From assembly GCF_003664035.1 (NCBI RefSeq), contig NZ_RCCK01000013.1, forward strand, positions 1 through 64,000: a DNA stretch of 64,000 nucleotides, given 5' to 3'. Origin of the DNA: Pedobacter alluvionis. Its GTDB lineage: Bacteria; Bacteroidota; Bacteroidia; Sphingobacteriales; Sphingobacteriaceae. A model generated the notes under the pieces. The model ran no database searches. It worked only from the letters and a program-made list of their open reading frames with translations, and was not told where the DNA came from. Positions 6,882 to 61,079 of the stretch are shown here, piece by piece. Position numbers and translations under genes: made by a program. How positions within the stretch are numbered: position 1 is the stretch's first letter; every line of letters begins with the position of its first letter.

Positions 6882-7955
6882 TTAACCTACAGCGCCTTCC
6901 TGCATCTTCTCTGCATTTTCTGCGAACTGGAGTGCGTCAATAATCTCCTGGATATCCCCATCCATAATACTTGGCAGGTTATACATCGTTAATCCGATAC
7001 GGTGTTCGGTAACACGCCCTTGTGGATAGTTATAAGTCCTGATCTTAGCCGAACGATCTCCGGTTGACACCATTGTTTTACGTTTAGCAGCAATATCACC
7101 ATTCTTTTTCTGCAATTCGATATCGTAGAGTTTACTACGCAACATCTCCATCGCAATTACACGGTTACCCAATTGCGAACGTTCTTGTTGACATACCACC
7201 ACAATACCCGACGGTTTATGTGTTAACTGCACTTTGGTTTCTACCTTATTTACGTTCTGTCCACCAGCACCGCCTGAGCGCGAAGTTTGCAACTCAATAT
7301 CTGCAGGGTTAATATACAGATCAATTTCTTCTGCTTCTGGTAAAACTGCTACTGATGCCGCTGAGGTATGCACACGGCCCTGCGTTTCAGTATCTGGCAC
7401 GCGTTGTACGCGGTGTACGCCACTTTCGTACTTTAACTGACCATAAACATCATCGCCATTTACTTTCAGAATTACCTCTTTATAACCGCCCGCAGTGCCT
7501 TCGGTTACATCAACAGTCTCCACTTTCCAACCCTTAGTTTCGAAATAACGGGTATACATGCGGTATAAATCGCCCGCAAACAAAGCCGCTTCATCGCCAC
7601 CGGTACCACCGCGAATTTCAAAAACTGCATTTTTAGCATCTTCAGGGTCTTTAGGAATCAACATCAAGCGGATATTGCTTTCCATTTCTTCCTGCTGTTT
7701 TAACAAAAGATCGAGCTCTTCTTTTGCCATTTCGCGCATTTCAGCATCTTTCTCTGTAGCTAAAATTTCTTTGTTGGCATCAATATTACTCATTACATTT
7801 TTGTAGATTTTATATTCATCTACAATCTTGCCTAAATCTTTATATTCTTTATTTAAAGCCGCAAAACGTTTCATATCCTGAATTACATCCGGATTACTAA
7901 GCGATTCCTCCACATCTTCCCAACGCAGCTTTATAGCTTCTAATTTATCTAACAT
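6882..7955 (-). CDS. prfA: Peptide chain release factor 1
   Basis: The 357-residue class I release factor recognises UAA/UAG and triggers peptidyl-tRNA hydrolysis on the ribosome. The catalytic GGQ is at 231-233, followed by NVNKVET. The codon-recognition tripeptide is PDT at 187-189 (PxT marks RF1; RF2 has SPF). N-terminal coiled coil and switch regions are present and the length is normal for the family. The start ATG is at 7955. A small perfect hairpin (7973-8009) sits 18 bp upstream of the start, inside or next to the probable leader. Downstream is the tRNA-Asp promoter, so the genes are transcribed separately. Confidence 0.97.
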
Positions 7956-7972
7956 ATTTATTCTTGTTGAAA

Positions 7973-8009
7973 TTTCCTGATTAGTAGCACCAGGCTAAAA
8001 ATCAGGAAA
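7973..8009. repeat. Conserved-loop hairpin, copy 1 (upstream of prfA)
   Basis: TTTCCTGATT (7973-7982) and AATCAGGAAA (8000-8009) form a perfect 10-bp stem. The 17-nt loop contains TAGCACCAGGCTA. Two other hairpins in the window (54908-54952, 60851-60896) share the ACCAG(G/C)CT loop core but have unrelated stems. Confidence 0.7.
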
Positions 8010-8124
8010 TGCAAAAATAAGGAAAAAAGCTGAATTTGTTTGTTTAGGATTAGAGGTTAATTGGTTAACCGTTTGAATTGCTCAGTCGCTTAGACATAAT
8101 TGAAATCGCTTAAGTTCAATTTGA
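8010..8124. other. Spacer with no recognised feature
   Basis: This AT-rich stretch lies between the prfA leader hairpin and the first 0.26-kb repeat. No coding frame, promoter or hairpin of note was found. Confidence 0.5.
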
Positions 8125-8449: not shown

Positions 8450-8704
8450 AAATGAGCAGTTCCTCTCCTATGGCAGCCAGTAGCCCCGCTATCACTTCAA
8501 GTCCTCGCCAAACGCTGCGGGATTTCCGTTTTATCGGGTTTAGGAACAGAGTGAGGTGCATTTAGGCGCATGCGACCCTTAATAGTAGCATGAACCTGCG
8601 TAAATAAACGGGATTGTAGTGGCAGCTCCCGATTCTTCATCGGGACTAAAACGAAAAGCCCGACGAACATTAAATTAAGCTTCAGGTTTTGCTTTCCGAA
8701 AAAA
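8450..8704. repeat. Intergenic repeat, copy B (about 0.26 kb)
   Basis: This is the second copy of the unit at 8125-8386, in the same orientation, and it ends 10 bp past the lpxH stop codon. The inverted pair CCCGAT...ATCGGG is kept although the bases between differ (TCTTC), as expected for a conserved hairpin. The two copies are separated by about 63 bp of unrelated sequence. Confidence 0.8.
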
Positions 8705-11963: not shown

Positions 11964-12030
11964 CGTCACCCTGAATTTATTTCAGGGTCTTAATAGCCAG
12001 ATAGATGCTGAAATAAATTCAGCATGACGA
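11964..12030. repeat. GTCA...TGAC palindromic repeat (CCCTGA / GCTGAA classes)
   Basis: GTCACCCTGAA pairs internally with TTCAGGGTC, and GATGCTGAA pairs with TTCAGCATGAC at the right end. It is one of six related elements in the window, all in intergenic sequence. No coding frame is present. Confidence 0.75.
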
Positions 12031-36547: not shown

Positions 36548-38473
36548 ATGGCTAGATTAAATCTACTGGAGGAGACACGTTTCGAGAAATTACCTGTAAG
36601 CGTGTTCGAAAATCCAAAAATTGCTTCAATTAATGTGGCACATCGCATTGCCGGGCTCATTAAATCAAAACAAGCAAACAACACACCTGCAGTACTGGGC
36701 TTAGCAACAGGTGTTACCCCAATTGCAGTTTATGCCGAACTGGTTAGACTGCACAAAGAAGAGGGCTTAAGTTTTAAAAACGTAATTACTTTTAACCTGG
36801 ATGAATACTATCCAATGGCGCCAACCGCAGCGCAGAGTTATGTTACGTTTATGAACGAAAACCTTTTCAATCATATCGATATTGACAAAAAAAATGTTCA
36901 CATCCCTGATGGTACGCTTGCACTGGAAGATATTCCTGCTTTCTGCCTGGAATACGAAAAGAAAATCGGCGATCTTGGTGGCCTTGACATCCAGATTTTA
37001 GGAATCGGCCGTACAGGTCACATCGGGTTTAACGAGCCGGGTTCTGCACCAAATTCCGGTACCCGCTTAGTTACCTTAGATGATTTGACGCGCCGGGATG
37101 CTGCGCGTGATTTTGGCGGAAAAACCTTTGTACCAACAAAAGCCATTACCATGGGTATCGGTACAATTTTCAAAGCAAGAGAAATTATATTAATGGCCTG
37201 GAGCCGTAAAAAAGCTTCAATCATCAAAAAAGCTGTTGAAGGAGAAATTTCAGGCGAGGTTCCGGCAACATACCTTCAGCTTTCTGAACATGTAGAGTTT
37301 ATCCTCGATGCACCTGCAGCTTCAGAATTGACCCGTTTTGATACGCCCTGGTTGGTTAAAGATTGTGTTTGGACAGATGCATTGATCCGCAAGGCAGTGA
37401 TCTGGCTGGCCAACACATTGAAAAAACCGATCTTAAAATTAACGGAAGACGATTACAATAATAATGGTATGGCGCAACTGGCTACTGAAAAAGGACCAGT
37501 TTATAACATCAACATCCATATCTTTAATAAATTACAACACACCATAACTGGCTGGCCAGGTGGCAAACCCAATGCTGACGATTCTCAGCGTCCGGAAAGA
37601 GCCGAACCAGCTAAGAAGAGTGTAATTATTTTTTCTCCTCACCCTGATGATGATGTGATCTCGATGGGCGGTACTTTTCTACGTCTGGTTGATCAGGGGC
37701 ACGATGTACATGTAGCTTATCAAACTTCGGGTAATACTGCAGTATGGGATGACGACGCACTTCGTTTTGTAGAGTTTAATGTAGATTTCACAGAGAAAAT
37801 GGGCATGGACAATACGCACTTAAAGGAACTTTACCACAAAATGAGGGCCTTTATTGAGCAGAAAAAGCCAAACCAGATTGATACTCCCGAGATCCAAACG
37901 GTTAAAGGGCTTATTAGAAAAGGCGAAGCTATTGCCGGTGCAAGATATTGCGGTTTAGAAGATGACCATATTCATTTCCAGGCGCTTCCTTTCTACGAAA
38001 GCGGGAAAGTTCAGAAAAATCCGGTAACTGATGCTGATATTGAACTTACAATAGCCTTATTGCAACAAGTTAAACCTCAACAGGTTTATGCTGCCGGCGA
38101 TTTTGAAGATCCTCATGGAACGCACATCGTTTGTTTCAAAATTATTTTAGAAGCATTAAAACGATTGCGTAAAACTGAAGCCTGGGCGCAAGATTGCTGG
38201 TTATGGATGTACCGTGGCGCATGGCATGAATTTGAAACTTATGAAATCGAAATGGCGGTTCCAATTTCTCCACAAGAGCTTGAACGCAAGAAATATGCGA
38301 TTTTCAAACACCAGAGTCAGAAAGACAGGGCGGTTTTCCCTGGCGATGACTCAAGAGAGTTCTGGCAACGGGCAGAAGATCGTAACCGTGAAACTGCAAA
38401 GGCTTATGACGAACTTGGACTTGCAGAATACGAAGCTATGGAAGCTTTTGTTCGCTGGAAATTTGAAGACTAG
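36548..38473 (+). CDS. nagB: Glucosamine-6-phosphate deaminase fused to a PIG-L/LmbE deacetylase domain
   Basis: The 641-residue two-domain cytoplasmic protein. Residues about 1-290 are NagB-like (GlcN6P to fructose-6-phosphate and ammonia), with D85 in NLDEYY, H158 and E163 in GHIGFNEPGS. The position of E. coli D141 is T156 (GRTGH), so one catalytic-triad residue is replaced. Residues about 355-641 are a LmbE/PIG-L zinc deacetylase domain with SPHPDDD (363-369) and a later DPHGTH. The fusion would join N-deacetylation to deamination. Such long NagB proteins occur in other Bacteroidetes. A terminator follows. It is divergent from anmK, tying both to amino-sugar catabolism. Confidence 0.9.
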   Translation: MARLNLLEETRFEKLPVSVFENPKIASINVAHRIAGLIKSKQANNTPAVLGLATGVTPIAVYAELVRLHKEEGLSFKNVITFNLDEYYPMAPTAAQSYVTFMNENLFNHIDIDKKNVHIPDGTLALEDIPAFCLEYEKKIGDLGGLDIQILGIGRTGHIGFNEPGSAPNSGTRLVTLDDLTRRDAARDFGGKTFVPTKAITMGIGTIFKAREIILMAWSRKKASIIKKAVEGEISGEVPATYLQLSEHVEFILDAPAASELTRFDTPWLVKDCVWTDALIRKAVIWLANTLKKPILKLTEDDYNNNGMAQLATEKGPVYNINIHIFNKLQHTITGWPGGKPNADDSQRPERAEPAKKSVIIFSPHPDDDVISMGGTFLRLVDQGHDVHVAYQTSGNTAVWDDDALRFVEFNVDFTEKMGMDNTHLKELYHKMRAFIEQKKPNQIDTPEIQTVKGLIRKGEAIAGARYCGLEDDHIHFQALPFYESGKVQKNPVTDADIELTIALLQQVKPQQVYAAGDFEDPHGTHIVCFKIILEALKRLRKTEAWAQDCWLWMYRGAWHEFETYEIEMAVPISPQELERKKYAIFKHQSQKDRAVFPGDDSREFWQRAEDRNRETAKAYDELGLAEYEAMEAFVRWKFED

Positions 38474-38487
38474 TTTAAAATAACACC

Positions 38488-38523
38488 AATCCTGCTTTGT
38501 TCGCTCAAAGCAGGATTTTTTTT
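38488..38523 (+). terminator. Terminator of the NagB fusion gene
   Basis: AATCCTGCTTTG (38488-38499) and CAAAGCAGGATT (38506-38517) form a perfect 12-bp stem with a 6-nt loop and a long T tract, 14 bp after the stop codon. Confidence 0.92.
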
Positions 38524-38617
38524 GTTCCGCTAAGTTGTCATGCTGAGGGATAATTTATTTTATAAAAATAAATATAAAGGACAGGTGATTTTGATGAATT
38601 AATAGGCCATGAAGAAT

Positions 38618-38712
38618 CGTCATTGCGAGAAGGCTTTTTCAGCCGACGAAGCAATCCTACAACGATCGCTAACAGCGTGCGCTTTAAGATTGCTTCGTGC
38701 CTCGCAATGACG
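38618..38712. repeat. GTCATTGCGAG-type palindromic repeat
   Basis: CGTCATTGCGAG at the left pairs with CTCGCAATGACG at the right, with inner GAAGCAATC / GATTGCTTC. It belongs to the GTCA...TGAC family in the 976-bp gap after the NagB fusion gene. Confidence 0.8.
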
Positions 38713-38796
38713 ACCTTTCTTTATAAGATCTGTCAATGGTAGGAGTTAGAATTTTCCCAATACATAGGAGGGGGTTGATGACAGATATACAAGGGG

Positions 38797-38877
38797 CGTC
38801 ATTTCGACCGCAGTGGAGAAATCTTTGAACTATGTTAAAAGATTTCTCCATTTCGCTGCGCTTCAGTCGAAATGACG
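38797..38877. repeat. GTCATTTCGAC-type palindromic repeat
   Basis: CGTCATTTCGAC at the left and GTCGAAATGACG at the right, with inner GAGAAATCT / AGATTTCTC. Same class as 19111-19194 and the 51939-52068 element. Confidence 0.8.
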
Positions 38878-39270
38878 GCGATTTTTTAAATCTATCATTG
38901 ATAGCGAAGCATCTTTAAAAAAGTCAGTCATCTCATTAAATGCTGTTTCATACTTTCGCGAGAGAGATCTCCCCTATTAGTTAGCGCCACCCTAACCAAC
39001 CTAGTCAAAGTTTAATTATCCAAAATCTCTTTTTTTTGAAAGCAATGTCTGCAGTTCTTCGGTCACTATCGTCCTGCCCTTTGCTTAATCCCGATAAAAA
39101 ACGATAAAACAATATTAATCTTAAATCGGGATAACGCTGCCGGTCAGGTTTATTGAACATAAGGCTCTGCCGTTATAATCCCTACTTCCTTCAGTAAAAT
39201 AGTCTGGCCTAATCAAACCTCTCCGTGTTTCCGAGTCTCCGTGGCAAAAACAAATATCTATCCTCAAACT
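38878..39270. other. Gap without a gene
   Basis: No coding frame is supported. It holds an inverted pair AATCCCGAT...ATCGGGAT (about 39088-39133) and a phrase near 39225-39250 (CCGTGTTTCCGAGTCTCCGT) that echoes one near 9631-9662. It looks like accumulated repeat debris. Confidence 0.5.
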
Positions 39271-39365
39271 GTCATGCTGAGCGCAGCGAAGCATCTATTC
39301 AATAAGGGGTCTCTAACTACATAAAACACACCTAACAAAAGATCCTTCACTTCGTTCAGAATGAC
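39271..39365. repeat. GTCATGCTGAG-type palindromic repeat
   Basis: GTCATGCTGAGCGCAGCGAAGC on the left and CACTTCGTTCAGAATGACAG on the right bound an imperfect inverted repeat with inner GCATCT. It is the third GTCA...TGAC element in the same gap. Confidence 0.65.
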
Positions 39366-39449
39366 AGATCTTATCCCGCCAGGTCTTATTTATTTCTCAT
39401 TCTAAAAACAATACTCTAAATTAGTTTGCTGAACCCAAATAAGCGAATC

Positions 39450-54781: not shown

Positions 54782-54907
54782 GGAACTGGATTGGTTTTTA
54801 AACTAAAAAAAACCGGGCATAATCTTCTTAAATCTAAACAGATATCAAAAATACTGAATAGCTAAGCCAAGTGTTTGTTTTTAACATATTTTAACAGCAC
54901 TGAGAAG

Positions 54908-54952
54908 ACTTCCGAAGTTTTCGGGAATACCAGCCTGGTAAACTTCGGAAGT
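54908..54952. repeat. Conserved-loop hairpin, copy 2
   Basis: ACTTCCGAAGTTT (54908-54920) and AAACTTCGGAAGT (54940-54952) form a perfect 13-bp stem; the 19-nt loop holds AATACCAGCCTGGT. A degraded arm (GAACTTCGTAAGTC) follows near 54967. Loop core is shared with 7973-8009 and 60851-60896. The remaining gap has no gene. Confidence 0.75.
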
Positions 54953-54989
54953 ATAAGTGATGGAAGAACTTCGTAAGTCTGGCATGGGC

Positions 54990-60078: not shown

Positions 60079-60843
60079 ATGACCTACATTTTCGATGGTT
60101 CACTTCAAGGGCTCTTAACTGCCTCTTTTGAATGGTTTGAGCGCAAGCCTGGCAAAGTGATGCTCAAATCAACCGAAATGTTTCAGCCGGAAGCTTTTGC
60201 AGAAAGCTTAACTGTTATGACGGATGCAACAAAGGCTGATCGCGTTTGGGCCGGGCTTCAAAAAAAACTAAAAAAAGAATGGCTCCGTAAATTTTATTGC
60301 AGTTATTTATCAGAAATTCCTGAAGCTTACAATCACCTTTTTCAGTTTACCTTATATATTTTTCAAAATCAGTTAGGTGCCGAAAATAATTATGGCAACG
60401 AACATGTAATTGCCTTAGCTAAATATGCAAAAAGTGTAGAGCGGGAAAAACACAGGATGGAGGCATTTATCCGCTTTCAAAAAACGGGCGATGGAATATT
60501 TTATGCCAGTATCGATCCTGATTTTAATGTTTTACCCTTAATATCCAATCATTTTAAAAACCGATATGCCGATCAGCAATGGGTGATTTATGATTTAAAA
60601 CGGAAGTATGGCCTGCACTATAATTTAACCACGGTGGAAGAAATTACAATTAGTTTTACTAACGGTATAAATAAACAAAACCCATCATCAATTTTGATGG
60701 ATGAAGGCGAAGCTTTATATGCAACGCTTTGGAAAGATTATTTTAAAAGTGCAAATATTGTAGCCCGCAAAAACACCAAATTACATGTGCAGCATGTACC
60801 CAAAAGGTACTGGAAATATTTGACAGAAAAAGCGCCGGTTTAG
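60079..60843 (+). CDS. DUF4130-type partner of the radical SAM protein (probable DNA metabolism)
   Basis: The 254-residue protein opens MTYIFDGSLQGLLTASFEWF and contains VEREKHRMEAFIRFQKTGDG (about 130-150), YASIDPDFNVLPLISNHFKN and FADQQWVIYDLKRKYG-like text (YADQQWVIYDLKRKYG). These are the marks of the family found beside the radical-SAM DNA protein. In some genomes it is fused to a uracil-DNA-glycosylase-like domain; here that domain is absent. It ends DYFKSANIVARKN followed by HVPKRYWKYLTE, a region rich in basic and aromatic residues that may bind nucleic acid. It starts 23 bp after the radical SAM gene. Confidence 0.88.
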   Translation: MTYIFDGSLQGLLTASFEWFERKPGKVMLKSTEMFQPEAFAESLTVMTDATKADRVWAGLQKKLKKEWLRKFYCSYLSEIPEAYNHLFQFTLYIFQNQLGAENNYGNEHVIALAKYAKSVEREKHRMEAFIRFQKTGDGIFYASIDPDFNVLPLISNHFKNRYADQQWVIYDLKRKYGLHYNLTTVEEITISFTNGINKQNPSSILMDEGEALYATLWKDYFKSANIVARKNTKLHVQHVPKRYWKYLTEKAPV

Positions 60844-60850
60844 CTAACAA

Positions 60851-60896
60851 GAGTTGACAACTTTAATAGCATACCAGGCTAGTAAGTTGTCAACTC
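60851..60896. repeat. Conserved-loop hairpin, copy 3
   Basis: GAGTTGACAACTT (60851-60863) and AAGTTGTCAACTC (60884-60896) form a perfect 13-bp stem. The 20-nt loop contains TAGCATACCAGGCTA, close to the loop of copy 1 (TAGCACCAGGCTA). It begins 8 bp after the stop codon at 60843. It could double as a terminator, but no T tract follows. Confidence 0.75.
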
Positions 60897-61079
60897 TGAA
60901 TATCCATAATTCTGGCGAAAAAAACTGAAACTTACTGCCATGCTGACACCCACATTCTCCATTAGTGTGAAAAGATTGACAGTTTGGTGAAAATTTGTCC
61001 CTCCAAACCACTTGGCATAAAAAGTGTTGATTGTAGCTTAGTTAAAAATTCAAATCAAAATAAAAATTTAATAAAAGTT

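Follow-up and report, generated by a model that had tools for sequence, protein, structure and literature searches.

Three hairpins with a common loop motif in a 64,000-nucleotide stretch of Pedobacter alluvionis DNA (the window) very probably have different origins, a reading to which we assign a probability of roughly 85%. Two of them, h2 and h3, are REPIN-like elements, and the third, h1, is a hairpin in the leader RNA of prfA (Table 1). h2 and h3 are assigned in this way because they belong to the repeat families A and B, respectively, and A-type hairpins flank genes for REP-associated tyrosine transposases (RAYTs) in related genomes. h1 is a vertically inherited RNA structure.

Table 1. 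Positions of the hairpins and associated features in the window
Feature	Position	Strand	Details
prfA, peptide chain release factor 1 (PCRF and RF-1 domains)	6882..7955	-	start codon 16 nt from h1
h1, prfA leader hairpin	7972..8010	-	outer stem 11 bp, inner stem 4 bp; perfect stem 11 bp at 7972-8010, loop AGTAGCACCAGGCTAAA
TATTTTTGC, promoter-like -7 element	8011..8019	-	directly before h1
Gene with Glucosamine_iso and PIG-L domains	36548..38473	+	C-terminal part matches neighbour of family A RAYT in relatives
Interval matching place of family A RAYT	38522..39391		counterparts in Pedobacter psychrodurus L282, G020, G034 and G049
h2, family A inverted pair	54907..54953		arms 54907-54920 and 54940-54953, spacer 19 nt; perfect stem 13 bp at 54908-54952, loop TCGGGAATACCAGCCTGGT
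Third family A arm, GAACTTCGTAAGTC	54966..54979		12 nt beyond h2
h3, family B inverted pair	60850..60897		arms 60850-60864 and 60883-60897, spacer 18 nt; perfect stem 14 bp at 60850-60897, loop TAATAGCATACCAGGCTAGT

The loop motif of the three hairpins

The initial annotation treated the three hairpins as a single family whose loop, ACCAG(G/C)CT, is conserved and whose stems, of 10, 13 and 13 bp, are free. All three loops do contain this motif, and the positions, the perfect pairing and the length of the h2 stem are as described, but the stems of h1 and h3 are each one base pair longer. When the three hairpins are aligned with MAFFT, the pairs of h2 and h3 fall one column out of register.

In 462 kb of the contig, made up of the window and 20 further stretches, we listed 166 hairpins with a perfect stem of at least 9 bp and a loop of 3 to 30 nucleotides, and sought ACCAG[GC]CT in loops of at least 12 nucleotides together with six stem bases on either side. 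Only h1, h2 and h3 contain it. This sharing is weak evidence of kinship, because shuffled window loops equal it: with at most one mismatch allowed, three or more loops have a common 8-mer in 27 of 300 trials for the seven loops of at least 13 nucleotides and in 66 of 300 for the ten loops of at least 10 nucleotides. Nor is ACCAG(G/C)CT a motif of any of the families described below. It occurs in one of 53 family B spacers (h3 itself), in one of 42 family A spacers (h2 itself), in none of the 68 F and nine E spacers, and in only two of 26 prfA leaders, namely L252, which is h1, and L264.

The proposal of a single family with free stems is thus not borne out. The 462 kb listed hold no more copies, and the stems have three separate origins: those of h2 and h3 belong to repeat families in which the stem is conserved and the spacer varies, and their arms recur across the genome above reversed-pattern controls, whereas the stem of h1 recurs at the orthologous prfA site. 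Conservation of a stem at orthologous positions, which the initial annotation had named as an outcome that would count against its proposal, is therefore found for h1.

A leader hairpin upstream of prfA

h1 is directly preceded by TATTTTTGC, which we take to be a -7 element on the basis of the Bacteroidota consensus TAnnTTTG. This anchor and a leader hairpin are present at the same place in 23 of the 26 prfA leaders examined. The leaders derive from the 30 loci in the genus that are closest by the prfA protein, from which 26 starts were used; L277 to L280 were left out, since their start was not matched by the pattern used. When whole leaders are folded, the outer stem has at least six pairs in 22 of the 23 anchored leaders (that of L266 has three), and the sequence varies in the outer and inner stems alike. 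Native leaders also fold more stably than chimeras whose halves are drawn from other species, with mean energies of -11.67 versus -8.88 kcal/mol over all 23 (0 of 5000 shuffles) and -10.90 versus -7.30 kcal/mol over eight non-redundant leaders (p=0.0002). Selection on an RNA structure, suggested by the initial annotation for all three hairpins, is accordingly upheld for h1, in which native halves pair better than chimeric ones, but not for h2 or h3. When the leaders are aligned plainly with MAFFT, RNAalifold predicts no pairs, probably owing to misregistration of the right arm.

Positions 7972-8019 of the window thus correspond to a covarying prfA leader hairpin that extends across the Pedobacter genomes examined. 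Its position is conserved and its pairing compensatory, and it belongs to no named family; the Rfam search gave two matches in the window, none of them at h1, h2 or h3. It is possibly an unreported leader RNA. A separate feature near prfA, at 8602-8669, matches the Flavo-1 sRNA (RF01705) with 42.6 bits, compared with a gathering score of 42. A structured message start suggests that the hairpin either shields prfA mRNA from decay or controls its translation. The hairpin is kept by selection on pairing, and most likely protects or regulates the prfA message, a role that is open to direct testing.

Repeat families and RAYT genes

The arm of h2, allowing one mismatch, has 39 strand hits in the genome, compared with 15 for a reversed control. 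We collected 42 family A pairs, 17 of them from this genome (two overlapping or partial). Among the 42, L286 and L287 seem to be copies with a short loop whose arms were mispaired, and the L231 entries are near-identical neighbours. The central bases of the arms pair with each other in only 32 of the 42.

Family B, with the layout AGAGTTGWCAACTTT, a spacer of ~17 nucleotides and AAAGTTGWCAACTCT, is represented in the window by h3, which lies directly 3' of the stop codon of 60079-60843. The h3 arm AGTTGNCAACT occurs at 27 palindromic places in the genome (five for the reversed pattern), 18 of which make nine inverted pairs with members 31-33 nucleotides apart. The loci collected hold 62 distinct pairs within five mismatches, including 18 from this genome, of which two overlap, and one, L101, that is probably due to chance. 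The spacer is 16-18 nucleotides long in 56 of the 62. From these pairs it follows that family B has a constant stem and a variable loop. Across the genus, 34 of 60 genomes carry the B arm with at most one mismatch; at least five strand hits, and up to 34, occur in 16 of the 60, compared with at most two per genome for the reversed control. In a set of 53 filtered pairs, collected allowing two mismatches per arm, the arm-centre bases pair with each other in every case (shuffled mean 26), a pattern whose source could be a few events from two old orientations. None of 52 B pairs lies inside a long ORF, compared with 65% of random places.

At the site of h3, 23 genomes were examined out of 30 loci, the other seven loci being left out. 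Outside this genome, a B hairpin can be made out by eye in G058, G009, G020, G011 and G031; G052 and G027 hold more decayed traces, and G041 a trace of the right arm. The other 14 genomes examined, G049 and G051 among them, have no B hairpin there.

Family F is unevenly distributed. Its arm has 197+199 strand hits in G048, 31+32 in G037, 17+17 in G036 and 10+14 in G053, and each of these genomes has an F-flanked RAYT. G005 and G007 have 13-17 hits per strand and no F-flanked RAYT among the loci examined, and each remaining genome has at most three hits in total. Arm-centre bases pair in 66 of 68 F pairs (shuffled mean 41), and none of 28 F pairs falls inside a long ORF (65-66% of random places do so). 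An array of F hairpins in both orientations, at L239 817-1430, lies beside the F-type RAYT of G048.

RAYT genes in related genomes are flanked by A-, E- and F-type repeats. G043 and G020 each have a Y1_Tnp gene that lies between two hairpins, one of A type and the other of A type or a near-variant. A search with the A-type RAYT protein found relatives in 32 of the 60 genus genomes. Those at L222-L232 have A-type or near-variant hairpins at their flanks, E-type arms (AGCTTTGACAACCTT) flank the relatives L235, L237, L238 and L243, and F-type arms (AGTCATCCGATGAAT) flank L233, L234 and L239, and L236 on one side only. Among 80 named loci from GTDB genomes, an upstream and a downstream hairpin have a common stem in 45, whereas cross-locus pairings have one in 106 of 1578 cases. 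In 42 of these 45, one or both of the hairpins have a loop no longer than 7 nucleotides. The NCBIfam model REP_Tyr_transpos (NF047646) matched all six proteins given to it. Four RAYTs of this genome score above the cut-off of 80 bits (85-112 bits), and two A-type RAYTs score below it (71.9 and 63.4 bits). The N-H-F-H motif and the tyrosine motif (Y, N, P) are invariant in 14 aligned RAYT proteins. No relative of the RAYT was found among viral contigs.

This genome has seven Y1_Tnp matches, with no A or B core motif within 1.5 kb on either side of them. Three of its RAYT genes (L067, L068 and L070) have short-loop palindromes of their own at their flanks (GTCGGGATTTG..., GTCAGATG... and TCCTCGTT...). 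We found no enzyme for family B in this genome. The link between h3 and a RAYT is drawn from the likeness of family B to families A, E and F, because no B-flanked RAYT was found among the loci examined, which cover 30 of the 48 RAYT matches of one search and part of those of another.

The A-type RAYT sits downstream of a PIG-L gene, whose copy in the window has a Glucosamine_iso domain as well. The C-terminal part of the window gene matches the neighbour of the RAYT in relatives (G000:C4:37292-38470, 97%). A hairpins flank a RAYT in relatives at this locus, and its window counterpart has no RAYT. The corresponding interval in the window holds ~870 bases of unrelated sequence, with neither a RAYT nor an A hairpin among those listed, and is not a clean empty site. 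Of 12 genomes compared, four were picked because an earlier search had shown the RAYT; these four, G020, G043, G034 and G049, have the A-type RAYT at the PIG-L locus, and it is missing there from the remaining eight. In G027 the place is occupied by an A-type hairpin alone. The P. psychrodurus contig is 100% identical to G043 over 3746 bases and ~87-89% identical to the window at ~36.2-41.8 kb. Because the enzyme is absent beside surviving A copies, it was probably lost from this genome, where family A seems to survive without it; the alternative is a gain of the A-type RAYT in the four relatives.

The window also contains repeats of other kinds. At 38646-38698 lies a member of a different inverted repeat family, ACGAAGCAATC...GATTGCTTCGT, whose inner core resembles CGCTANNRGCG, and more copies are present in L003, L007, L008, L009 and L013. 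A further repeat copy, with arms CTGAATTTATTTCAG and CTGAAATAAATTCAG, is found at 11964-12029, and similar ones in L012 and L065. Four near-identical stretches with a spacing of 399 bases at the window start (208-1480) probably belong to a putative long repetitive gene.

Although the stems of B and F are unrelated, their spacers in part resemble each other beyond dinucleotide shuffles. Scored with a profile of the other family, F and B spacers alike exceed such shuffles. With spacer interiors, none of 500 nulls reaches the observed mean in any of the four tests, and with full-length spacers 12, 0, 0 and 0 of 500 do so, the 12 arising in one of the eight tests, in which the full-length B profile is applied to F spacers of 17 nucleotides. 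These tests covered B and F, with profiles built from redundant sets, and the pattern, pairing and profile tests all left out rows whose spacers lie outside the set lengths. Thus, the conserved loop over unrelated stems that the initial annotation had noted does have a counterpart in the B and F spacers, but not through ACCAG(G/C)CT. Less robust than this likeness is the pattern GC-N4-7-GC. Against single-base shuffles of all spacers, it occurs in 30 of 53 B (null mean 3.9), 30 of 68 F (3.5), 23 of 42 A (7.7) and two of nine E spacers (0.6, maximum 3). With non-redundant spacers and dinucleotide shuffles, the counts are 11 of 27 for B (null mean 6.1, maximum 10), nine of 24 for F (4.4, maximum 8) and 14 of 24 for A (10.9, maximum 16), the last not significant. 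Inner pairing within the spacer, such as TAGC...GCTA, shows no significant excess over half-swapped chimeras in eight tests, comprising four spacer sets and two pairing rules (p from 0.106 to 0.948); by that test, therefore, selection does not act on the inner stem of h3 as a structure.

A tentative and rather doubtful explanation of the common spacer is that the RAYT/REPIN lineages of Pedobacter swap or vary their arms and keep the spacer. The arm might then be the address of the enzyme, and the spacer, approximately GC-N4-7-GC, a shared working site, for example the sequence at which RAYTs without a GTAG foot cleave or by which they are guided. This leads to the testable prediction that the arm is the enzyme-specific part of the element and the spacer the shared part.

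Several other origins for the hairpins can be weighed against this evidence. That all three form one family, with ACCAG(G/C)CT recognised by a partner and the stems free, might be expected from the restriction of the motif to these three of 166 hairpins, all in one 64-kb window and each with the motif on the + strand. We consider it very improbable, given how often shuffled loops do as well (27/300 and 66/300) and the absence of the motif from all other B, A, F and E spacers and from the prfA leaders examined other than those of L252 and L264. The A and B elements could instead be intergenic RNAs under selection, such as 3'-end stabilisers or terminators, and not mobile DNA. The absence of B pairs from long ORFs (0/52) and the place of h3 directly after a stop codon agree with such a role, which is nevertheless unlikely, as B copies number from none to dozens and F copies from none to hundreds within one genus, RAYT genes are flanked by A, E and F arms, most of the 22 relatives examined have either a decayed counterpart of h3 or no visible one, and the spacers do not covary. 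h1, for its part, resembles the repeats in having an outer stem and a short inner stem, and its loop fits GC-N5-GC, so it might go back to an old REPIN insertion that came to serve as the leader of prfA. This too is improbable: 20 of the 33 strand hits of the h1 arm in this genome were examined and, apart from h1, include no inverted pair, and the h1 stem is in none of the hairpins listed at RAYT flanks. Look-alike hairpins can thus be sorted through their copies, orthologs and partner genes.

We therefore prefer separate origins, in which h2 and h3, each with two near-palindromic inverted arms around a short spacer and scattered between genes, were probably mobilised in the form of single-stranded hairpins by HUH transposases of the RAYT type. 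The likeliest course, following PMC6006769 as far as its account of RAYTs applies here, is that the arms would fold on single-stranded DNA and the RAYT would then bind and cut. Each RAYT lineage would have its own arm sequence, and the stems would therefore differ between families and not within them. The initial annotation had also proposed a copying mechanism that inserts the loop and makes an inverted copy of the flanking bases. In kind, this agrees with h2 and h3 as RAYT-associated inverted repeats, but what recurs is the entire hairpin and not a loop beside newly copied flanks.

Comparison with known systems

Literature searches for four arm strings and for REPINs in Bacteroidota returned no paper, and the part of PMC12306157 considered here mentions neither RAYT nor Pedobacter. 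The Pedobacter repeats are most readily compared with REPINs or BIMEs and their RAYT (TnpAREP), as treated in the relevant parts of PMC6006769; a further reference on such elements is PMC3116915. Like these, they have inverted near-palindromic arms and many intergenic copies and, in families A, E and F, an arm sequence that is specific to the RAYT and a RAYT gene flanked by the same repeats. Two inverted arms form one hairpin, the stem is kept within a family, and there are many dispersed extragenic copies, with placement outside ORFs computed for families B and F. For family A, a RAYT flanked by the same repeat is found in relatives, often with a near-variant on one side, but not in this genome. 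Unlike REPINs or BIMEs, the Pedobacter elements as a rule lack a GT[AG]G foot, and their arms hold an 11-nucleotide odd palindrome. The tetranucleotide lies within 6 nucleotides of the hairpin foot in one of 62 B pairs and within 12 nucleotides in three, so they are not canonical REPs of the GTAG class. Because the structural features agree and the GTAG foot is nearly absent, we file the elements as REPIN-like. Spacers in families A, B and F are mostly 16-23 nucleotides long, whereas those of REPINs in other genera are often 3 nucleotides.

The GTAG- and CGTC-tagged REP dimers in the portion of PMC3733652 that concerns them are likewise dimers, with spacers that are at times conserved or structured within a family. 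Their tags are absent here, and that portion makes no mention of a likeness of spacers across families such as we observe.

Judged by listed motifs, not profiles, the RAYTs look most like TnpAY1 subclass 2.1 of PMC6006769, for which the corresponding part of that paper gives NH[YF]H, FQ and Y[IV]HLNP; the RAYTs here have NHFH, FQ and YIHxNP. This subclass has a median length of 238 amino acids in the same account, compared with ~167-207 in the 14 proteins aligned here, and is reported there without REP-like sequences nearby, whereas 45 of 80 loci here have the same stem on both sides. Subclass 2.6, in the entry given by PMC6006769, resembles the present RAYTs in being mostly from Bacteroidetes, in its YIH[QN]NP motif and in genes flanked by atypical secondary structures that are copied elsewhere in the genome, but it lists WQ where the RAYTs here have FQ. 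The Pedobacter elements thus represent tag-less, spacer-bearing Bacteroidota repeats linked to RAYTs whose motifs resemble those of a subclass reported without REPs.
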